Assembly: GCF_947498805.1 (NCBI RefSeq) | Contig: NZ_CANMLT010000009.1 | Span: 96,876 to 160,875 of the forward strand | Source of the DNA: an uncultured Tenacibaculum sp. | GTDB taxonomy: Bacteria > Bacteroidota > Bacteroidia > Flavobacteriales > Flavobacteriaceae | Length of the DNA: 64,000 bases | Direction: 5' to 3' | Shown here: in pieces, positions 1 to 11,134 of the stretch | How the letters are laid out: each line of letters begins with the position of its first letter | Position numbering within the stretch: the first letter of the stretch is position 1 | Translations under genes and position numbers: made by a program | The notes under the pieces: generated by a model | The model's database searches: none | Seen by the model: the letters and a program-made list of their open reading frames with translations, nothing else | Told to the model about the DNA's origin: nothing

Positions 1-2
1 AA

Positions 3-551
3 TTCAACTTTAAAAAGTTAGGTTTACGAATTGGTTCAAATGAAAGTTCTATTTACAGATACTTTGAAAGTAAACATAAACTTCTAATTTATTTAACTTC
101 TTGGTATTGGGGTTGGATTCAATACCAACTGGTTATTGAAACCTATAGCATTCAAGATTCAAAAGATAAACTTAGAAAAGCTATTGAAGTTGTTACCAAA
201 ACTACGAAGCAAGACAGTAATTTCTCACATATTAATGAAGTTTTGTTAAATCGTATTGTGATCGACGAAAATGCTAAATCGTATTCAACTAAAGAAGTAG
301 ATACAGAAAATAAAGAAGGCTTTTTTAGACTTTACAAAGAAGTTGTTAGACGTTTAGCTGAAATTATTAGTCTTTATAATTCTTCATACAAACATCCATT
401 AACCTTAGCTAGTACCATTATAGAAGGAGCATTGCATCAGCAATTTATTAGACAACACTTTAAAACATTAACAAATTGCGATGACACTATAACTCCAACG
501 TCTTTTTTTATTGATTTAACCCTTAACACCTTAATTAATGAGCGAAAATAA
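3..551 (+). CDS. TetR/AcrR-family regulator, 5' end missing
   Basis: The reading frame is open from the window edge to a TAA at 549-551, so the gene begins outside the window; the ORF track shows only its C-terminal half from an internal TTG. The visible N-terminus contains the end of a TetR-type helix-turn-helix, with the recognisable pattern GSNESSIYRYFESKHKLL. The rest is an all-helical ligand/dimer domain of about 160 residues with no motif I can assign to a ligand. Its stop overlaps the start of the following ABC gene by 14 nt, so the two are translationally coupled and the regulator very probably controls the downstream ABC-HlyD-TolC export operon. Family call is secure; the ligand is unknown. 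Confidence 0.85.
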   Translation, partial: FNFKKLGLRIGSNESSIYRYFESKHKLLIYLTSWYWGWIQYQLVIETYSIQDSKDKLRKAIEVVTKTTKQDSNFSHINEVLLNRIVIDENAKSYSTKEVDTENKEGFFRLYKEVVRRLAEIISLYNSSYKHPLTLASTIIEGALHQQFIRQHFKTLTNCDDTITPTSFFIDLTLNTLINERK

Positions 552-2199
552 AATTCTAACCCCTTGGAAACGTTTTGTTGGTTTATTAAATCTTGAGAAA
601 AAAGACACTTTTCAAATTGGTTATTATGCCATTTTTGAAGGTATTGTGGCATTATCTCTTCCATTAGGAATACAAGCCATAATCAATTTGCTACAAGCAG
701 CTCAGGTATCTGCTTCTTGGATAGTTCTGGTAGTGCTTGTTACTGGAGGTGTAGCTTTTAGTGGAGTTTTAAAACTTATGCAAATAAGAATTATAGAAAC
801 CATTCAACAACGCATATTTACCAGAGCATCTATTGAGTTGAGTTATCGATTTCCAAAAATAAAAATGAAGGAATTGGAAAATTATTATCCACCAGAATTA
901 GCGAATAGATTCTTTGATACATTAACTATTCAAAAAGGAATTTCAAAAGTTTTAATTGATGTTCCATCTGCATTTTTGCAGATTATTTTTGCCTTAATTT
1001 TACTTTCATTCTATCATCCATTTTTTATTGTATTTGGTATTCTTCTACTCTTATTAATTTATGTAGTATTTAAGTTTACTGCTGAAAAAGGTTTAGAAAC
1101 TAGCTTGAAAGAATCTAAAAACAAATACAAAGTTGCTCACTGGTTGCAGGAGATTGCTCGTACTATAATTAGTTTTAAGTTATCTGGAAAAACAACGTTA
1201 GCACTACAAAAAAGTGATGATCTTGTAAGTGAATATATACAATCTAGAGAAAGTCATTTTAAAGTATTACTTACACAATACATTCAAATGATAAGTTTTA
1301 AGGTAATTGTTACCGCTGGATTACTTTTAATTGGAGGTTTTCTTGTACTTAACCAACAAATGAATATCGGGCAATTTGTTGCTGCTGAAATCATTATTTT
1401 ATTGGTTATTACTTCTGTTGAAAAACTTATTCTAGGGCTGGAATCTTTTTATGATGTACTTACCTCTATTGAAAAACTAGGACAAGTAGTAGATAAGCCA
1501 ATCGAATCTCAAAAAGGAACTAAACTAGAAGATTTAGACTCTTTAGAAATTGAGATTCAAAACGCTAGTTATTCTTCTACCAATAAAGAAACACCAATTC
1601 TTAGTGATATTTCTTTTAAAATTAACTCTAAGGATCGAATTTTAGTTCAAGGGAAAAGTAGTTCTGGAAAATCAAGTTTATTACAACTTATTGCGGGAGT
1701 TATAGAGCCTACTTCTGGGAACATTTTCGTTAACAATCTATCATTAAAAAGTCTATTGTTAAACGACTATAGATCAAACTTAGGATTATCACTTTCAGAA
1801 GAAACCCCTTTTGAAGGAACCATCCGTGAAAATATCACTTTTGGAGATCCAACAATTACAGACAAAGAGATATATGAAATGTTTGATGCTATTGGATTGT
1901 CATACTTCCTAAAACACCAACCTAATGGGCTCGATACTTTTATTCAACCAGAAGGAAAATTAATTGGTTATACCATTGCTAAGAAAATCATTCTAGCAAG
2001 AGCCATGATTATCAAACCAAAACTATTAATTCTTGAAGATCCATTAGATCAATTAGAGAAAGAGGAAGCTCAGAAAATCATCGATTATATTACAGATCCA
2101 TCTAAACCTTGGAGCTTAATTATAGTAAGTAGTAACGATGCCTGGAAAAAGAAATGTAATAAACAAATAACACTTGTAAAAGGAGTTATTGTAAATTAA
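538..2199 (+). CDS. ABC exporter subunit with degenerate nucleotide-binding domain
   Basis: A fused membrane-domain/ATPase protein of 553 residues. Hydrophobic helices lie at about 25-85, 140-180 and 250-300, giving the six-helix type I exporter fold, followed by an ATPase domain from about 335. Walker A is intact (GKSSSGKS, 372-379). Other motifs are not: the Q-loop Gln is replaced (SLSEETPFEGTI), the LSGGQ signature is LIGYT (475-479), Walker B plus catalytic Glu reads LILED instead of LILDE, and the H-loop His is Ser/Asn (IIVSSND). There is no N-terminal peptidase domain. The next genes are HlyD and TolC homologues, so it should energise or gate a type I-like export channel; whether it hydrolyses ATP is doubtful from the sequence. 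Confidence 0.8.
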   Translation: MSENKILTPWKRFVGLLNLEKKDTFQIGYYAIFEGIVALSLPLGIQAIINLLQAAQVSASWIVLVVLVTGGVAFSGVLKLMQIRIIETIQQRIFTRASIELSYRFPKIKMKELENYYPPELANRFFDTLTIQKGISKVLIDVPSAFLQIIFALILLSFYHPFFIVFGILLLLLIYVVFKFTAEKGLETSLKESKNKYKVAHWLQEIARTIISFKLSGKTTLALQKSDDLVSEYIQSRESHFKVLLTQYIQMISFKVIVTAGLLLIGGFLVLNQQMNIGQFVAAEIIILLVITSVEKLILGLESFYDVLTSIEKLGQVVDKPIESQKGTKLEDLDSLEIEIQNASYSSTNKETPILSDISFKINSKDRILVQGKSSSGKSSLLQLIAGVIEPTSGNIFVNNLSLKSLLLNDYRSNLGLSLSEETPFEGTIRENITFGDPTITDKEIYEMFDAIGLSYFLKHQPNGLDTFIQPEGKLIGYTIAKKIILARAMIIKPKLLILEDPLDQLEKEEAQKIIDYITDPSKPWSLIIVSSNDAWKKKCNKQITLVKGVIVN

Positions 2200-2211
2200 A
2201 AAGACCTATAT

Positions 2212-3570
2212 ATGTTAAACATATCTAAGAATAGTATCTCACATTATGTAGATATCACTAAATTTAAGTCTGGCAAAGAAATATTCGCTAAAGAGCATCA
2301 TAAACTCTTCAGGAAGTTTTTACTTGGTTTTTTAGTTGCTCTTATCATTATTTTATTTTTACCATGGACACAAAATGTTTCTAGTACAGGTAGAGTAACC
2401 ACTTTAAAACCTAATCAACGTCCGCAAACTTTACAATCTCAAATACCGGGTAGAATTGAACAATGGTTTGTTCAGGAAGGAACTTTTGTAAAAAAGGGAG
2501 ATACCATTTTAAGAATTTCTGAAGTAAAAAGCGATTATTTTGATAGTAAATTAACAGAACGAACTGGACAGCAATTAAACTCTAAAACTCGATCTGTAAA
2601 AGCCTATAACAATAAAGTAAATGCCTTAAAAAAACAGATTGGTGCCTTGCAAAATGAACGCGTTTTAAAACTGGAGCAAGCTAAAAACAAACTTCAACAA
2701 ACTTATTTAAAAGTAAAAACAGACAGCATCGATCTAGAAGCGGCTAAAATAAAACAGCAAATTGCCAAAACTCAATTTGACCGAACTGTTATGTTAGAAA
2801 AAGAAGGACTAAAAGCAGTAAAGGATGTAGAAGAAAAAAGAGCCAAGCTACAAGAACAATCCGCCAAATTGGTTTCTCAAGAAAACAAACTTTTAAATAC
2901 TCGAAACAATGTTTTAAATGCTCAAATTGCTATCAATAGTATTCAAGCATCTTATACCGATAAAATATCGAAAGCCGAGAGTAATTTGTATACCGCAGAA
3001 TCCAATGCTTTAGATGCCGAAGTTCAAGTATCAAAACTAGAAACAAGTTTATCTAATTATAGTAAAAGAAGCTCTTTACTATATGTTACAGCTCCACAAG
3101 ATGGATATATTAACAAAGCAATTAAAACAGGTATTGGAGAAACCTTTAAAGAAGGTGAAGCTTTGGTTAAGATAATGCCTGCTAATTATGACTTAGCAGT
3201 AGAAATGTTTATTGAACCAATAGATTTACCACTAATTCACATTAATGAAGAAGTTCGTGTACAATTCGATGGATGGCCTGCAATAGTTTTTAGTGGTTGG
3301 CCGAATGCTTCTTATGGTACTTATAGCGCTAAAGTAGTAGCTATAGAAAACTTTATAAGCGACAACGGAAAGTATAGAGTTTTAATTGTTCCTAATAATC
3401 CTTCTCAACCATGGCCAAAAGCTATACGAGTTGGTTCTGGAGCTAAAACCATAGCATTATTAGAAAATGTTCCAATCTGGTTTGAATTATGGAGACAAAT
3501 AAACAGTTTCCCTCCTAATTTTTATCAACCTAAAAAAGACACTAACGAAAAAGTAAAGAAGAAGAAATAA
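2212..3570 (+). CDS. HlyD-family periplasmic adaptor protein
   Basis: The 452-residue protein has one N-terminal membrane helix (about 35-52, ending FLPW), then the split biotinyl-lipoyl domain (PGRIEQWFVQEGTFVKKGD at 80-98 and TAPQDGYINKAI near 298), with a long alpha-helical coiled-coil hairpin between them (about 110-285, rich in Lys, Gln and Glu). The C-terminal beta-barrel contains the VRVQFDGWPAI segment typical of type I secretion adaptors. It would bridge the inner-membrane ABC protein encoded 12 nt upstream and the TolC-like protein whose start overlaps its stop by 1 nt. It lies in a TetR-ABC-HlyD-TolC operon; substrate not predictable because no substrate gene is visible. Confidence 0.9.
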   Translation: MLNISKNSISHYVDITKFKSGKEIFAKEHHKLFRKFLLGFLVALIIILFLPWTQNVSSTGRVTTLKPNQRPQTLQSQIPGRIEQWFVQEGTFVKKGDTILRISEVKSDYFDSKLTERTGQQLNSKTRSVKAYNNKVNALKKQIGALQNERVLKLEQAKNKLQQTYLKVKTDSIDLEAAKIKQQIAKTQFDRTVMLEKEGLKAVKDVEEKRAKLQEQSAKLVSQENKLLNTRNNVLNAQIAINSIQASYTDKISKAESNLYTAESNALDAEVQVSKLETSLSNYSKRSSLLYVTAPQDGYINKAIKTGIGETFKEGEALVKIMPANYDLAVEMFIEPIDLPLIHINEEVRVQFDGWPAIVFSGWPNASYGTYSAKVVAIENFISDNGKYRVLIVPNNPSQPWPKAIRVGSGAKTIALLENVPIWFELWRQINSFPPNFYQPKKDTNEKVKKKK

Positions 3571-4970
3571 TGAAGTTAAAGATTTTACTTGTTCCATTTT
3601 TACTCCTATGCTTTCAAGCAAGCTCTCAAAATGCTGAATTAGATCAATTGAGTTTGGAAGAGTACTTAGGGTATGTAAAGAAGTATCATCCTGTAATTAA
3701 ACAGGCCAAACTAATTACCAGTACAAATGAAGCTAAACTATTAAAAGCGAGAGGTGCTTTTGATCCTAAAATAGAAGTAGATTTCGAAAAAAAAGAGTTT
3801 AAAAACACTGAATATTTTGAAAAGCTAAATTCTGTTTTTAAAATCCCAACTTGGTATGGAATTGAGTTGAAAGGTAGCTATGAAAACAACTCTGGTCAAT
3901 ATTTGAATCCAGAATTAAACACTCCTGATAATGGATTGTACAATGTTGGTATTTCGGTATCATTAGCTAAAAACTTATTTATCAATAAAAGAATGGCTAC
4001 ATTAAAACAAGCCAAACTCTATTTAAAGCAAGGAAAATTAGAGCAACAGTTATTGGTTAATAATATTCTTTTTGATGCTATTGACGCTTATTTAAATTGG
4101 ACAAAATACCATCAGAGTTATGAAACCTTTAAACGTTTTAACAACAATGCTCAGTTTAGATTAGAGAATGTAGTTAAAAGTTATAAAGCAGGAGACAAAC
4201 CGGCTGTTGATACTTTAGAAGCCCGTATTAATTTAGATAGTAGAAAATTAGATTTAGAAAAAGCTCGAATCAAATATGTAAAATCTACTTTAGAGTTATC
4301 GAATCATTTATGGATTGGAGAAAACACCCCTTTGACTTTAAGAGAAAATATCAGGCCTACTTCAGATACTTTTTCAAAGATTAAAATTTTATTAGATAAT
4401 TCTATAGGAAGTACATCCATCATAATTGAAGAGCATCCGAAGCTAAAACTTTTAGAATTAAAGCGAAAAAATCTTCAAATAGAGAAAAGATTAAAGATTA
4501 ACAATCTATTACCTAAAGTAGATTTTCAATACAATCTCTTAAGTTCAAACGTAGACAATTTTGATTCTTTTAAAGCTTCCAACTATAAAAAATCTCTTCA
4601 AGTAAGTATTCCGCTGTTCTTAAGAAAATCTCGAGGTGATTTACGATTAGCTAAAGTAAAATTACAGGACATTGATTTTGAAATTGCTTCAACAAAAACT
4701 GTTCTTTTAAATAAAATAAAAGCTACAGAGCAAGAAATAGCATCTTTAGAAACACAAAATAATATTCTAAATAATCTTGTAAACGATTATAATAGTATTG
4801 TAAAAAGCGAAGAAAGAAAATTTTCTTTAGGAGAGAGTTCTGTATTTTTAATTAATTACCGAGAGGTAAAATTGATAGAAACGCAATTAAAAGAAATTGA
4901 AAACAATTACAAATTCGCAAAAACGCACAGTAAGTTTTTCAAATTACTTGGAAAACTAGATACGTTATAA
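3570..4970 (+). CDS. TolC-family outer-membrane efflux protein
   Basis: A 466-residue protein with a signal peptide (hydrophobic core to about residue 17, cleavage near ASSQ) followed by the two related helical-hairpin repeats of outer-membrane efflux proteins. The first repeat carries LEEYLGYVKKYHPVIKQAKL and the second EEHPKLKLLELKRKNLQ, both with the usual His-Pro pair at the start of the long helix. It is the outer-membrane channel of the tripartite system with the HlyD and ABC proteins upstream; its ATG overlaps the HlyD stop by 1 nt. Its last 6 nt overlap the end of the convergent gene on the minus strand, so no space remains for a terminator between them. Confidence 0.9.
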   Translation: MKLKILLVPFLLLCFQASSQNAELDQLSLEEYLGYVKKYHPVIKQAKLITSTNEAKLLKARGAFDPKIEVDFEKKEFKNTEYFEKLNSVFKIPTWYGIELKGSYENNSGQYLNPELNTPDNGLYNVGISVSLAKNLFINKRMATLKQAKLYLKQGKLEQQLLVNNILFDAIDAYLNWTKYHQSYETFKRFNNNAQFRLENVVKSYKAGDKPAVDTLEARINLDSRKLDLEKARIKYVKSTLELSNHLWIGENTPLTLRENIRPTSDTFSKIKILLDNSIGSTSIIIEEHPKLKLLELKRKNLQIEKRLKINNLLPKVDFQYNLLSSNVDNFDSFKASNYKKSLQVSIPLFLRKSRGDLRLAKVKLQDIDFEIASTKTVLLNKIKATEQEIASLETQNNILNNLVNDYNSIVKSEERKFSLGESSVFLINYREVKLIETQLKEIENNYKFAKTHSKFFKLLGKLDTL

Positions 4971-6071
4971 CTCTCTTTCGAACTCTTTTAATAGAGCTTG
5001 ATCAAATGATATATATTCTGGTAGTATACGCAAGCGATATTTACTTTCACCTATAAAAGTAATTAAATCCTTGCGTTCTAGTTTATTTTCTTCTTCTAAG
5101 ACAAGTATTGTGTTGATATTGTCTATTATTCTAGTTAAATAAGTCTGGCTTTTAATTTCTCCACCAGAATTCACAACTATTGACTGCTTATCTGCAGCTA
5201 AATACTTTCTTCTATAAGCAAAGTTTAAAAGGTTCTTGTATTGAGTAGTTTTTGATCCAAAATCAATTTTCTCATTAATAATTCCTTTTGAAGGAATACT
5301 TAACTGAATCAACGACCAATCTAAAAAACTTATTTTCATTTCATTGGGTTTAGGCATACTAGCCAACTGAATTACCCAGCTCGTTGCTAACACCAAAAAA
5401 ACAGACACCAATGAAGTTTTCGCAATGATACGAATTAGTTGATTGACAAAATCATTATCTAATCCAACAAACACATCCGATAATTGCGATATAAACAATA
5501 AGGCTATTGCTATGATAGAAATAAACGCTACTAATTTCAAATCTCTATGCATAAAAGTTCTATAAAAAGATACCCCCATTAGAAAACACAAAAACGTAGT
5601 TAGTAATACGTCTGGAATAGAAACTATTTTCACGCCAGAGACTACCTTATTTCCTAACACAGATGAAAGTAGTAGTGTAATAGCGGCAACAGCAACAATA
5701 ATTATAGCAATAATCTTAGCGTTCTTTTCATTTCTGTAAATAAATTTTGGAGCGTCATACACGTAATACAAAGCCAATAACCAAAACAAATTATTAATAG
5801 TAGACAGTATATTTATACCTATTTGATTTAGTAATGTATCTTGAAAAGAGAAGTAATTCACTATAAAAGCCCAAGTTCCAGAAACCACCCAGACAAGCAT
5901 ACCAAAGCTAAAATACAACAACCCTCGATCTACTCTTTTTATCGAATTCCCCTCTTCCAGAACGGCGCTAAAGCGCTTTCTAATATTATAATAAATAGCT
6001 AGTAACAACACAGCTCCAATGAATGATATACAAATATGTGATAAGTTATGGAACTGTGTTACTTCTGTCAT
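4965..6071 (-). CDS. Seven-helix membrane protein with soluble C-terminal domain, unknown
   Basis: Not recognised. The 368-residue protein has seven hydrophobic segments (roughly 8-27, 50-75, 84-105, 118-140, 150-170, 180-203, 212-237) followed by about 130 soluble residues, mixed alpha/beta, containing a basic AYRRKYL stretch. That architecture fits a sensor or membrane-bound regulator better than a transporter, but no catalytic or DNA-binding motif is clear. Its ATG directly follows the TAG of the ACMS decarboxylase with no gap, making it the last gene of the kynurenine operon and probably co-translated. It overlaps the convergent tolC-like gene by 6 nt at the 3' end. A role in the pathway (sensing, uptake) is only inferred from position. 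Confidence 0.6.
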   Translation of the reverse strand: MTEVTQFHNLSHICISFIGAVLLLAIYYNIRKRFSAVLEEGNSIKRVDRGLLYFSFGMLVWVVSGTWAFIVNYFSFQDTLLNQIGINILSTINNLFWLLALYYVYDAPKFIYRNEKNAKIIAIIIVAVAAITLLLSSVLGNKVVSGVKIVSIPDVLLTTFLCFLMGVSFYRTFMHRDLKLVAFISIIAIALLFISQLSDVFVGLDNDFVNQLIRIIAKTSLVSVFLVLATSWVIQLASMPKPNEMKISFLDWSLIQLSIPSKGIINEKIDFGSKTTQYKNLLNFAYRRKYLAADKQSIVVNSGGEIKSQTYLTRIIDNINTILVLEEENKLERKDLITFIGESKYRLRILPEYISFDQALLKEFEREL

Positions 6072-7154
6072 CTATTGTAAAATTTTATTGACTAAATTTT
6101 GTTTTGCTTTTTCATCATCTCCATACAACCATTGTAATACATTATCTTCCCACATCTCATCTTTCTGCTGTTCATTGATAATACTTCTATCAATTGCTAA
6201 ATCTAAGATTTTTCCTGGATATGACGATTGTTTATCACTCTCCATTTCTCCCAATGGATATGGATCATCTAATCCTATAAGCACTTGACTTGCCCCTTGG
6301 TTTTTTATCAACAAATCTAAAGAACCTGTATCATGTACCAAGGTATCAAAGAAAATATTTTTATGCCCTACTGCTTTTCTTGGATGACTTTTTCCTTCAA
6401 ACAAATCAGGCCTACCATCAAAACCTTGAATACGACGACCTAAATTCATTTGAGCCAACTGTCCTCCATGTGCAAAACAAATTCGCATATTTGGATACTT
6501 TTCATAGTATCCATTTAGTGTTAAGAAATGATATGCATCTGCACATTGTGCTAGCATCCAAATCAAATGAAAACGCCATGAGGTATTTTGCAGTTTGATA
6601 AACTTTTCTCCATCATATGGGTGAATCTCAACTGCCAAGTTATATTTATTAGCTAGTTCGAAAATAGGTTCATTCTCTTCATCAAAAATACAACGCCAAG
6701 TACCAATGGTATCCATGTAATGCGTAGGCAAACATAACAGACGCATCCCTAACACCTCAACACAGCGTTCTATTTCCCATAACGCTCCTCTAACAAAACC
6801 AGGGTGCACCACAAATCCACAAGTAAACTTATTTGGATTATCATGTTGCACACGTGCATTAAAATCGTTTTGAAAACGTAAAGCCTGTTTCATCTCTTCT
6901 AAGCGCAAACCATTTCCATAAAGCTGTGATAAATTTAAAACTACTGCATGGTCAATTTTAAAATGCTCCATCCAAGCTAGTTTTTCTTCTAAAAAGAAAC
7001 TTGAGTCTGTTACTGGTCGACTCCAATCTTTTTGAAGCATGTATTTTCTGTCTTTATCCACCCAAAAAATTCCTTTATCTTTCATGTATTGAGGAATTTC
7101 TTCTGGATAAGGAAGTAAATGTGAATGTCCGTTTATTCTTAGTTTACGTTTCAT
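6072..7154 (-). CDS. 2-amino-3-carboxymuconate-6-semialdehyde decarboxylase (ACMSD)
   Basis: An amidohydrolase-fold metal enzyme of 360 residues, about 25 longer than the well-known Pseudomonas and human enzymes. Zinc ligands expected in this family are all present: HSH (H10, H12), H178 in EIHPYD, H229 in FAHGG and the catalytic Asp near 296 in GLDDPYP; R46 in SRPVTD is placed like the substrate arginine. It decarboxylates ACMS, the ring-opened product of 3-hydroxyanthranilate, to 2-aminomuconate semialdehyde, diverting it from spontaneous quinolinate formation. The dioxygenase that makes ACMS and the dehydrogenase that uses the product are both in this operon, which supports the assignment strongly. 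NbaD/AmnC equivalents carry the same role in proteobacteria. Confidence 0.88.
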   Translation of the reverse strand: MKRKLRINGHSHLLPYPEEIPQYMKDKGIFWVDKDRKYMLQKDWSRPVTDSSFFLEEKLAWMEHFKIDHAVVLNLSQLYGNGLRLEEMKQALRFQNDFNARVQHDNPNKFTCGFVVHPGFVRGALWEIERCVEVLGMRLLCLPTHYMDTIGTWRCIFDEENEPIFELANKYNLAVEIHPYDGEKFIKLQNTSWRFHLIWMLAQCADAYHFLTLNGYYEKYPNMRICFAHGGQLAQMNLGRRIQGFDGRPDLFEGKSHPRKAVGHKNIFFDTLVHDTGSLDLLIKNQGASQVLIGLDDPYPLGEMESDKQSSYPGKILDLAIDRSIINEQQKDEMWEDNVLQWLYGDDEKAKQNLVNKILQ

Positions 7155-7155
7155 T

Positions 7156-7563
7156 TTAGTTGGTTTGTTTTAAGGAAATCATTGTTCCTTGCATTGTTGT
7201 ATATAATATCTCTTCCTTTTCATCTGTAACTTTTGCTTCACAAAAAACTAAAGTTCTTCCACTTTTAACAACACGACCTGTAGCAATAATAACATCTGCT
7301 TTGGCCGGACGTAAAAGATTGGTTTTAAATTCTACCGATAGTACATCAGAACCTTCTTCCATAGTAGTCAGTGCTGCATAACCACAAGCCACATCCATAA
7401 TACTTGTAAGTACCCCAGCATGAAAAAAACCATGTTGTTGTGTTAACCCATCATTCTTTTTACATCGTATTTTGAGTAATCCTTTTTCGATATGAATAAT
7501 TTCAGCTCCTAAGGTTTTCATAAAACCTTGTTTTAAAAAACTTTCTTTTGCCGCTTCAATCAT
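7156..7563 (-). CDS. PaaI-type hotdog-fold thioesterase
   Basis: A 135-residue single hotdog domain. It has the helix-turn signature QQHGFFHAGVLTSIMD, where the His-Gly and following Asp occupy the active-site positions of the PaaI/4HBT group. Members hydrolyse acyl- or aryl-CoA thioesters in the cytoplasm. It overlaps the stop of the 3-hydroxyanthranilate dioxygenase gene by 1 nt and sits 1 nt from the ACMSD gene, so it is a true member of the operon. No thioester occurs in the upper aminomuconate route, so it may release CoA at a later stage or protect against dead-end CoA esters; this is inference. Family call is good, substrate unknown. Confidence 0.8.
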   Translation of the reverse strand: MIEAAKESFLKQGFMKTLGAEIIHIEKGLLKIRCKKNDGLTQQHGFFHAGVLTSIMDVACGYAALTTMEEGSDVLSVEFKTNLLRPAKADVIIATGRVVKSGRTLVFCEAKVTDEKEEILYTTMQGTMISLKQTN

Positions 7564-8093
7564 TATTTCACCTTATTCGGAGCTTCCATTACGGTACCAC
7601 AATTAGCACAAGTACATTTTGCTCTATCTGAGTAATATTTATCGAAAATAATAGGCATGTCTGTTTCAATATTATCTAAAGCAAATTCTTCTCTATACAA
7701 TGGTGTTCCACAATTTTCACAATACCATTCTAAAGCATCCATCATACCTTCAGCTCTTGGGTACTCTATTACTAAACCAACAGTATTTGCTTTTCGTTGA
7801 GGAGAATGTGGAACTTTTCCTGGTAACAAGTAAATATCTCCTTCCTTGATTTCAACATCAACCATTTCTCCATTATCATCAATAATCTTTAATACCATAT
7901 CACCTTCTACTTGATAGAAAAACTCAGGTGTTTCGTTATAATGATAATCTTTACGATTATTAGGTCCTCCAACTACCATTACTATATATTCACCATCTTT
8001 CCATACTTGTTTATTTCCAACAGGTGGTTTTAGTAAATGACGATGTTCATCTATCCATTTTTTAAAATTCAAAGGTTGTACTAGCTTACTCAT
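7563..8093 (-). CDS. 3-hydroxyanthranilate 3,4-dioxygenase
   Basis: A 176-residue cupin that opens the ring of 3-hydroxyanthranilate with O2, giving ACMS. The Fe(II) ligands are visible as His and Glu in YHYNETPEFFYQ and His in PGKVPHSPQR. The C-terminus carries two CxxC pairs (WYCENCGTPL and CTCANCGTVM), the rubredoxin-like second iron site typical of bacterial and fungal enzymes of about 175 residues and absent from the longer animal form. It is placed 13 nt after the SDR and overlaps the thioesterase gene by 1 nt. With the neighbouring monooxygenase, kynureninase and ACMSD the role is unambiguous. Confidence 0.93.
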   Translation of the reverse strand: MSKLVQPLNFKKWIDEHRHLLKPPVGNKQVWKDGEYIVMVVGGPNNRKDYHYNETPEFFYQVEGDMVLKIIDDNGEMVDVEIKEGDIYLLPGKVPHSPQRKANTVGLVIEYPRAEGMMDALEWYCENCGTPLYREEFALDNIETDMPIIFDKYYSDRAKCTCANCGTVMEAPNKVK

Positions 8094-8106
8094 GATTGTT
8101 TAGATT

Positions 8107-8883
8107 TTATAATGATTTTGTTCTTCCTCCGTCTACAGGAACATTAATTCCGTTAATAAAACTTGCTTTTTCACTTGCTAAAAACACCACTGCATTTGCT
8201 ATCTCTTCAGGCTGAGCAAATCGTTTTGCTGGTGATGCGTTCTTCATTGTCTCAGCAACCTCTTCAACAGATTTTCCTGTCTTTTTAGCTTTATTATTGA
8301 TTATTTCATTTAAACGCTCCGTTCCAGTTGCTCCAGGCAATACATTGTTTACCGTTATACTATACTGTCCTAATTCATTTGCCAATGTTTTTGACCAATT
8401 AGCTACAGCGCCACGAATGGTATTTGATACCCCTAAACCATCTAAAGGTTGTTTTACAGAGGTAGATATTACATTGATCACTCTACCATACCCTGCTTCT
8501 TTCATAAATGGCACCAATGCTTGTACCAATACATGATTGCATTTTAAATGTTGTGTAAAAGCTCTTTCAAACTCATCTAATTGTGCATTAAAAACTGGTC
8601 CGCCTGCAGGTCCTCCAGTATTGTTTACTAGAATATGAAAATTCAAATTAGAAGCTTCTATTTTCTCTTTTAATTCTAATGGATTAGAGAAATCCGCAAT
8701 GATATAATCATGACGTTGTCCGTTATTTGGCAATTCAGCTAAAACTGCTTTTAGCTTTTCTTCATTTCGAGCTATCAATGTAACATTTGCTCCTTCTTCT
8801 GCTAACTGAATTGCAGATGCCTTCCCTATTCCTTGTGTACTACCGCAAACTAATGCGTTTTTATGTTGTAATCCTAAATTCAT
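8107..8883 (-). CDS. Atypical SDR-family oxidoreductase in kynurenine operon
   Basis: A 258-residue Rossmann protein with a slightly changed cofactor motif (CGSTQGIG in place of TGxxxGIG), NNTGGP in place of the NNAG motif, and the usual C-terminal VDGG end. The catalytic Ser is present (VISTSV), but where classical SDRs have YxxxK this one has SxxxR (GVSNTIRGAV). I recall a broad FabG-like subgroup with this exact replacement; its reactions are poorly known. It is first in the last block of the operon, just after a REP-like palindrome. A reductase step on an aminomuconate-derived intermediate is possible but not shown. Confidence 0.75.
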   Translation of the reverse strand: MNLGLQHKNALVCGSTQGIGKASAIQLAEEGANVTLIARNEEKLKAVLAELPNNGQRHDYIIADFSNPLELKEKIEASNLNFHILVNNTGGPAGGPVFNAQLDEFERAFTQHLKCNHVLVQALVPFMKEAGYGRVINVISTSVKQPLDGLGVSNTIRGAVANWSKTLANELGQYSITVNNVLPGATGTERLNEIINNKAKKTGKSVEEVAETMKNASPAKRFAQPEEIANAVVFLASEKASFINGINVPVDGGRTKSL

Positions 8884-8887
8884 ATTA

Positions 8888-8919
8888 AGCCCCTCCTAGC
8901 CTCCCCAAAGGGAAGGAAC
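8888..8919. repeat. REP-like palindromic repeat copy 1
   Basis: The motif AGCCCCTCCTAGCCTCCC continues into an imperfect hairpin CTCCCCAAAGGGAAG. It lies only 4 nt before the SDR start codon on the minus strand. It shares its layout (AGCCCCTC, TCCCC, GGGAG/GGAAGG, AAC) with the copy at 11562 and, inverted, with the one at 11649. It is far more GC-rich than the surrounding DNA. Confidence 0.75.
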
Positions 8920-8994
8920 TCTTATCTGGGTGGATAATCGTTTTTATTATTATTATTTTTCTACTTACTTCTTCTCATTTAGAGAATATAAGTA

Positions 8995-10440
8995 TTATTT
9001 ATACTGTATACATATATTTTTAGGCTCTGTAAAAAAGCGTAATGCTTCAAAACCTCCTTCTCTTCCTACACCACTATCTTTTTGTCCGCCAAAAGGTGTT
9101 CTTAAATCTCGTAACAACCATGTATTTACCCAAACAATTCCTGCATACAATTGCTTACTTAATCTCATAGTTCTATTCAGGTTATTGGTCCATAAGGTTG
9201 ATGACAATCCGTATTTTACATCATTTGCCATTGCTAATGCTTCTTCCTCCGTTTTAAATGGCATAATGGTAACTACTGGTCCAAATATTTCTTCTTGATT
9301 GAGTTTACAGTCATTACTTTCTACTTCAATAATTGTTGGTTGTAAATAATATCCTTCTTCACATTTATCAACTGTGACTCTATTACCTCCATACAATACC
9401 TTCCCTCCTTCTTCTTCAGCTATTTCTATATACGATTGTACTTTTTCTAAATGTGGTTTAGAGACTAAAGCTCCTACATTAGTCTCTTTATCAAAAGGAT
9501 TTCCAACTTTTAATTCTGATACTTTCTGAACAAAGTCTTTTTTGAATTGTTCATAGATATTTTCTTCTACGAAAATTCTACTCCCGCATAAACAAATTTG
9601 TCCTTGATTAGCAAATGAAGAACGTACTGTAGTAGCAATCATTTTATCATAATCACAATCAGCAAAAATGATATTCGGATTCTTTCCTCCTAATTCTAAA
9701 GAAAGTTTTTTAAACATTGGAGCCGCTACGCGCGCTATATGAGCTCCTGTCGTGGTTCCTCCTGTAAATGATATCGCTTTAATATCTGGATGTTCAACAA
9801 TTGCTTGTCCGGTTGTTCCTCCTAAACCATGTACTATATTTAACACTCCTTTGGGGAGCCCTGCTTCATTACATATTTCTCCTAATAAAAAGGCTGTCAT
9901 TGGAGTAACTTCGCTTGGTTTTGCAACAACACAATTCCCTGCTGCAATGGCAGGTGCTATTTTCCAAGTAAATAAATACAACGGTAAATTCCATGGAGAG
10001 ATACAACCTACAACTCCAATTGGCTGACGTAATGTAAAATTCATTGCATCTAAACCTACACTTTCATGCGCTTCCGAAGAAAATTGTGTTATGGCATTGG
10101 CAAAAAACTGAAAATTAGATGAGGCTCTTGGGATATCGATAGTAGTTGCTAAACTCAATGGTTTTCCATTATCTTTAGATTCTGCCTCAGCCAATTCGGG
10201 TAATTTATCTTGAATTAGCTGTGCTATTTTAGACATAATCTTACTTCTCTCTTCCAAAGAAGTATTTGACCAAGCAGGAAAAGCTTCCCTTGCCGCTTGA
10301 TATGCCAATGCTACATCTTCTTTTGAAGAATTTGGAATTTGTCCATATACCTCTCCAATAGATGGATTATAATTATCTATATAATTCCCAGCTATTGGAG
10401 CTACAAACGCTCCATTTATATAATTTTTAATGTTTTGCAT
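8995..10440 (-). CDS. 2-aminomuconate 6-semialdehyde dehydrogenase (ALDH family)
   Basis: An NAD(P)-dependent aldehyde dehydrogenase of 481 residues. The catalytic motifs are clear: SFTGG (NAD-binding loop), LELGGKNPNI containing the general-base Glu, and the nucleophilic Cys in FANQGQICLCGSR. EIFGPVVTIMPF is the usual distal motif. Position between the aminomuconate deaminase block and ACMSD indicates oxidation of 2-aminomuconate semialdehyde to 2-aminomuconate. I use the ATG at 10440 (MQNIKNYINGAF), one nucleotide after the preceding gene's stop, rather than the TTG at 10464 that lies inside it. About 110 nt separate its stop from the SDR gene, including the REP-like repeat. Family certain; substrate from context and length. 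Confidence 0.88.
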   Translation of the reverse strand: MQNIKNYINGAFVAPIAGNYIDNYNPSIGEVYGQIPNSSKEDVALAYQAAREAFPAWSNTSLEERSKIMSKIAQLIQDKLPELAEAESKDNGKPLSLATTIDIPRASSNFQFFANAITQFSSEAHESVGLDAMNFTLRQPIGVVGCISPWNLPLYLFTWKIAPAIAAGNCVVAKPSEVTPMTAFLLGEICNEAGLPKGVLNIVHGLGGTTGQAIVEHPDIKAISFTGGTTTGAHIARVAAPMFKKLSLELGGKNPNIIFADCDYDKMIATTVRSSFANQGQICLCGSRIFVEENIYEQFKKDFVQKVSELKVGNPFDKETNVGALVSKPHLEKVQSYIEIAEEEGGKVLYGGNRVTVDKCEEGYYLQPTIIEVESNDCKLNQEEIFGPVVTIMPFKTEEEALAMANDVKYGLSSTLWTNNLNRTMRLSKQLYAGIVWVNTWLLRDLRTPFGGQKDSGVGREGGFEALRFFTEPKNICIQYK

Positions 10441-10441
10441 T

Positions 10442-11134
10442 TTAACTGACCTTCTTTTTTTCAAGCCATCCCATTGGAATTTCTTGGTTACAAAATTCTA
10501 AATGAATTACTCTTCTATCATATGTTGAAACCGATTTTGAAGAAGCATGTAATAACAATGGTTTCATTAACATCACTCCTCCTTTTTCAACAATACATAA
10601 CTCTTCATTTCCTAAAGAGTTTTTATCAAAACTCTCATCTACTCTAATAATTCCTTTTGAATGTGTTTTGGGTATTACACTTAAAGCTCCATTTGTTTCA
10701 TCAGTTTTATCTAAATGAATTCTAAATGTAATTGTATTATCTAAAACATTATTTGGTGGAATTACCCCTAGTTGACCATTCTTATTGGTCCAATTTGTAT
10801 ATCCTATCTCCTCTATTCTTCTTGCTACACTAATACTCAAATCTTGATGCATACTCACAAACCAATTAGACTTACTTGGTTTGTTAAAGAAAATTGCTTT
10901 AGATAAGAAGTACTTTTGATCACAAGTCAACTCGTATAATTTCTTGAACTTCTCATTTCCAAAAATCACATCTAATATTTCAGGCTTTTTGGTAGTGAGT
11001 TTTCTTATCGCATACTCCTTTTCTGAAGTTTCGATCAACAACAACAATCTCTGAATTTCTTCATTACTAAAAACACATTCAGTAATTGAAAATCCTTGAT
11101 CTATTAATGCTTTTTTGTGTTGATTGAAACTCAT
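10442..11134 (-). CDS. PhyH-like Fe(II)/2-oxoglutarate dioxygenase
   Basis: A 230-residue protein of the phytanoyl-CoA dioxygenase type. The double-stranded beta-helix metal triad is visible: HxD in VSMHQDLS, and the distal His in PLLLHASSKS, followed by an Arg (YDRRVIHLEF) at the 2-oxoglutarate position. FRIHLDKTDETNGAL and VIPKTHSKG are the typical core strands. Such enzymes hydroxylate small molecules using O2 and 2-oxoglutarate. It sits 7 nt after the deaminase gene and ends 1 nt before the ALDH start, so it is co-transcribed with aminomuconate genes; no step of the textbook pathway needs it. Substrate unknown. Confidence 0.8.
   Translation of the reverse strand: MSFNQHKKALIDQGFSITECVFSNEEIQRLLLLIETSEKEYAIRKLTTKKPEILDVIFGNEKFKKLYELTCDQKYFLSKAIFFNKPSKSNWFVSMHQDLSISVARRIEEIGYTNWTNKNGQLGVIPPNNVLDNTITFRIHLDKTDETNGALSVIPKTHSKGIIRVDESFDKNSLGNEELCIVEKGGVMLMKPLLLHASSKSVSTYDRRVIHLEFCNQEIPMGWLEKKKVS

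Follow-up and report, generated by a model that had tools for sequence, protein, structure and literature searches.

An ATPase is what defines an ABC transporter. What, then, drives an export operon whose ABC protein has lost its catalytic residues? This question arises from a locus at one end of the window, the 64,000-nucleotide stretch of Tenacibaculum DNA analysed here. We asked how its protein is built, whether its peculiarities are shared by relatives, and which source of energy best accounts for them.

A type I-like operon with a degenerate NBD

The locus forms one operon in the order TetR-ABC-HlyD-TolC, with the TetR stop overlapping the ABC start (TAATGAG). The initial annotation had placed the ABC, HlyD and TolC genes correctly (Table 1). 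Both PF00664 and PF00005 score above the Pfam cut-off in the ABC protein, which has a six-TM ABC_membrane domain with an elbow helix followed by an NBD, the layout of an ABC exporter (type IV fold). Its best NCBIfam profile, TIGR03375 (LssB-like), scores 179.7 bits, far below the cut-off of 693.1. The predicted structure, of moderate confidence (mean pLDDT 73, pTM 0.45), matches PCAT1, HlyB and TM287/288 in Foldseek, and the NBD fold is predicted to be intact. The closest named orthologues are 92–93% identical.

Table 1. Features of the export operon and of its ABC protein, in window coordinates
Feature	Position	Strand	Remark
3' part of TetR-family regulator gene	1..540	+	gene start lies upstream of window
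ABC-exporter-like inner-membrane protein, degenerate NBD, 553 aa	538..2199	+	Pfam ABC_membrane + ABC_tran
Transmembrane domain (TMD), residues about 5–325, conserved part	550..1512	+	NBD-less clade consists of the TMD alone
Codon of Glu284 (TM6)	1387..1389	+	acidic in all NBD-dead and NBD-less members found
Codon of Glu295 (TM6)	1420..1422	+	conserved among Bacteroidota members
P-loop GKSSSGKSS, core kept	1651..1677	+	residues 372–380
Q-loop position LSLSEE, Gln lost	1786..1803	+	motif reading
Signature position, LIGYT replaces LSGGQ	1960..1974	+	motif reading
Walker B LILED, Asp and Glu exchanged	2026..2040	+	motif reading
H-loop position VSSND, His lost	2125..2139	+	motif reading
HlyD-type periplasmic adaptor	2212..3570	+	Pfam HlyD domains
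TolC-type outer-membrane channel	3570..4970	+	Pfam OEP

The NBD lacks the features of a catalytically competent domain, namely the Q-loop Gln, LSGGQ, the Walker B Asp-Glu pair and the H-loop His. Each change lies where the initial annotation had reported it; Walker B, for example, reads LILEDP against an expected hhhhDE. Walker A, which had been called intact, does retain its G-K-S core in the window protein, with Ser at the middle Gly, but this does not extend to the whole family, several lineages of which have lost the motif.

The same losses mark the family. Among 172 degenerate-NBD members, the canonical Walker B Asp survives in 10, the catalytic Glu in 16, the Q-loop Gln in nine, the H-loop His in one and an S-x-G signature in none, while 166 retain the P-loop pattern GxxxxGK[STN]. 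With losses recurring in 172 degenerate proteins, chance is far from explaining the pattern. The two Walker B positions often hold acidic residues (E in 148 of the 172, D in 136), and K, N, I, T, S, G and A also occur there. DE and His are kept only in remote relatives (about 28–36% identity).

With an ABC protein, an HlyD adaptor and a TolC channel encoded together, the operon has the gene content of a type I secretion system and shares with HlyB/HlyD/TolC an ABC-exporter TMD. It differs in that the window protein carries neither the catalytic ATPase residues nor a C39-like N-terminal domain. Judged from its motifs, the protein would not be the ATP-hydrolysing inner-membrane component of type I secretion: the system is T1SS-like by gene content and, on this reading, fails the defining ATPase feature by energy logic. 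Some longer relatives (L176–L178, L181–L186, L191–L193, L245–L252) have 150–250 extra N-terminal residues that gave no match in Pfam, peptidase C39 included; that they share a C39-like origin with the N-terminus of HlyB is only a guess from their position.

The TetR regulator suggests that the substrate is a small molecule or peptide. No RTX-type substrate was recognised near the window operon, and a non-systematic look at other family loci recognised no recurrent substrate gene beside them. A convergent cluster on the minus strand (4965–10464) resembles 3-hydroxyanthranilate/kynurenine catabolism, with dioxygenase-like, Amidohydro_2, thioesterase-like, SDR and aldehyde dehydrogenase genes, and also encodes a 368-residue membrane protein without a Pfam match.

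Conservation and selection

Homologues with the same substitutions and the same neighbours recur across the family, and we found no close homologue with canonical motifs, so the condition that the initial annotation set for refuting its reading does not apply. By our own tally from the search tables, about two thirds of the 99 genus mates sampled carry a full-length relative at 65–80% identity. At family level, with each genus represented by a single genome, a relative at 46–72% is present in about 70 of 121; genomes without the family protein hold remote ABC proteins only. Of 186 family loci, 184 have HlyD downstream and 157 have TetR upstream. We also noted one genome (G266) with two degenerate full-length copies (L185, L186) and another (G502) with one NBD-less and one full-length copy.

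Between the window gene and close orthologues, dN/dS is about 0.02–0.07 in the TMD and 0.04–0.14 in the NBD, values that are rough because synonymous sites are near saturation. The NBD is less identical than the TMD by 20.9 points on average, and lower in 66 of 66 orthologue comparisons. In contrast, the NBD of a canonical MsbA-like protein, taken from the same genomes as a control, is 9.5 points more identical than its TMD (mean, n = 20). By these measures the NBD is changing faster than the TMD yet remains under purifying selection. The idea of an ordinary type I exporter in recent decay, a pseudogene in the making, has nothing beyond the motif changes in its favour and is ruled out, with a negligible residual chance, by the same changes in intact frames across Flavobacteriaceae genera, low dN/dS (0.02–0.14) and a conserved operon, which bears out the earlier view that the gene is not a pseudogene.

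Relatives without a P-loop or an NBD

Several lineages have gone further than the window protein. The P-loop lysine motif is lost in a Tenacibaculum sub-branch (L033, L122, L136) and also in L194, Aureibacter and L255, where Arg replaces Lys. In Sphingomonadales the P-loop is lost in all five proteins examined, and the ABC-HlyD-TolC order is retained where annotated. These separate losses indicate that ATP binding was abandoned more than once. Nearly all Flavobacteriaceae members retain the P-loop Lys, and this, together with purifying selection on the NBD, means that ATP binding may still matter there.

Other relatives have no NBD at all. The first two were seen as matches covering the TMD only, and a directed search then turned up NBD-less proteins in 20 genomes of one Bacteroidota family and 15 of another. 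Their frames span 334–409 residues, ending about where the NBD linker would begin, and the hlyD frame abuts or overlaps the gene in all 35 genomes. A contig-end fragment that merely resembles an NBD-less protein (L234) was left out of this set. Frameshift artefacts are rejected as an explanation, since hlyD begins inside the gene or immediately behind it, and the 35 genomes agree.

Could the NBD instead be encoded separately? Across the 35 genomes we saw no frame of Walker or LSGG type within about 1.5 kb of the NBD-less genes, and tblastn with three family NBDs found no NBD remnant in 178 kb of NBD-less loci, while recovering 15 of 15 controls. Nor did eight NBD-less genomes contain a detached family-like NBD elsewhere; their best NBD matches were 22–30% identical and lay within full-length ABC proteins. 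On the evidence of these loci and eight genomes we reject a split family NBD supplied in trans, although an unrelated NBD could conceivably act in this way.

A tree of TMDs groups the NBD-less proteins in a single clade (SH-aLRT 100) that lies among the dead-NBD members. Members whose Walker B and His are near-canonical (LDEx, T/SHD; 591–839 residues) diverge close to the base. Long outgroup branches and a quick search leave the root and the deepest branching order uncertain; the monophyly of the NBD-less proteins is independent of both. At position 90 (window numbering), three residues past the conserved Glu87, Glu occurs in 100% of the NBD-less clade (L199–L233), against Gln in 99% of degenerate members.

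Degenerate and NBD-less members have in common a set of TMD residues that includes N123, F125–F126, K133, K196, H240, E284, E295 and K296, and the set from N123 to K296 is not found in canonical paralogues. Conserved family-specific Glu residues occupy positions 87 (TM2), 284 and 295. In the main alignment, position 284 is acidic in every member with a dead or absent NBD (E throughout, with one D), as it is in Sphingomonadales, but not in canonical ABC paralogues; the sole non-acidic case is Gln in L191, whose NBD is near-canonical. E295 is kept across Bacteroidota but not in Sphingomonadales. In the moderate-confidence model (mean pLDDT 73, pTM 0.45), TM6 carries E284 about seven residues in from its periplasmic end and E295 in its inner part. 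Most semi-canonical members already have both residues, which were therefore not invented at the loss of the ATPase.

Candidate energy sources

We propose that the operon probably encodes a TetR-regulated tripartite exporter, built of an ABC-type TMD dimer, HlyD and TolC, that operates independently of ATP hydrolysis. We favour this reading because the NBD residues have been lost and because relatives drop the P-loop or the entire NBD yet keep TMD-HlyD-TolC. An ATP-independent inner-membrane part of a tripartite exporter was among the options raised in the initial annotation and is the best of them, the NBD-less clade being the evidence. Transport or gating would then need no ATP hydrolysis, and the Tenacibaculum NBD would persist as a dimerisation module, either structural or ATP-binding. 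EmrAB-TolC and other MFS-type tripartite pumps likewise combine an HlyD-family adaptor and TolC with a non-ATPase inner-membrane part, although the inner-membrane fold here is that of an ABC exporter and not MFS.

Less surely, the proton-motive force would power alternating access through the TMD carboxylates E284 and E295 in TM6 and E87 in TM2. Such proton coupling is plausible by analogy with SbmA-like transporters, though E284 and E295, present already in most semi-canonical members, may serve the substrate rather than protons. SbmA is an importer driven by protons, and its proposed ancestor is a full-length ABC transporter that lost its NBD; SLiPTs are thought to use conserved glutamates for protons (PMC13316013). 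NBD-truncated MsbA has been reported to perform proton-coupled ethidium transport (PMC4979069).

The likeness to SbmA/BacA (SLiPT) lies in a type IV ABC-exporter-like TMD and in the absence of an NBD from both SLiPTs and the related NBD-less clade. The window protein, in contrast, keeps an NBD fold. SLiPTs moreover are importers without HlyD/TolC partners, with an extra TM0 and without coupling helices, whereas the ancestor of the present family looks T1SS-like, dead-NBD intermediates survive and the role is presumably export. By this analogy, the window system possibly works like a SLiPT but is not one. Tentatively, the family might be a second case, independent of the first, in which an ABC exporter became an ion-driven secondary transporter, this time inside a trans-envelope HlyD-TolC exporter and with every stage still alive. 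The stages of this conceivable route would be a near-canonical protein, a dead NBD with a P-loop, a dead NBD without one, and no NBD.

ATP-free transport by ABC TMDs has so far rested on SbmA and truncated MsbA; a widespread, conserved family whose motor is dead and, in one clade, missing offers a natural test of whether such TMDs can transport without ATP. A search of open-access papers turned up no account of the family.

Three alternatives fare less well than an exporter independent of ATP hydrolysis. First, the protein could be a nucleotide-gated or passive conduit, in which bound but unhydrolysed ATP stabilises the dimer, while the TMD gates or scaffolds HlyD-TolC without pumping. The P-loop Lys kept in 166 of 172 members and the predicted intact NBD fold are consistent with this, as are degenerate sites elsewhere that hold ATP as glue (PMC7756269). 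We nevertheless consider it unlikely: the operon persists where the P-loop is lost in several lineages and where one clade has deleted the NBD, and TM charges so strictly conserved point to more than a scaffold. The nucleotide-gated tether envisaged in the initial annotation thus stands as an option where the P-loop lysine is kept, but given these losses nucleotide gating is not the essential mechanism family-wide.

Second, an unlinked canonical ABC half could supply the active site in a heterodimer. The heterodimeric exporters TM287/288, TAP and CFTR have likewise lost the catalytic Glu, signature and H-loop on one side while keeping the P-loop, and known degenerate halves have an E-to-D change at the catalytic position (PMC7756269). 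Such sites suggest one way in which a dead NBD may be kept for dimerisation, but those exporters retain a second, canonical site, whereas here both sites of the presumed homodimer are dead. The genome does encode eight other ABC_membrane proteins; all of these paralogues are remote (about 19–31% identical) and none is linked to the operon, which holds no partner half. In the window protein, changes affect a composite site on its P-loop side as well as its signature side, the NBD-less clade and P-loop-less lineages would need a partner as well, and eight NBD-less genomes have no detached family NBD. Hetero-dimerisation, also suggested at the outset, is very improbable.

Third, the swapped Glu-Asp pair and the P-loop might still hydrolyse ATP slowly and drive export. 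The retained P-loop and the acidic Walker B residues of most members agree with a residual ATPase. We give this little credence, since the Q-loop, signature and H-loop residues are gone together, the Walker B acidic pair is itself variable and the TMD is more conserved than the NBD.

These proteins also counsel caution in reading gene names, as genes annotated 'ABC transporter ATP-binding protein' may encode no ATPase. Examples are a Riemerella gene without catalytic residues (L286 7953–9605) and a Sphingobium gene without a P-loop (L287 3953–5659). At the latter locus, in Sphingobium sp. KCTC 72723, a gene for a DUF2309 protein (L287 1357–3909) lies directly upstream of the ABC-HlyD-TolC operon.
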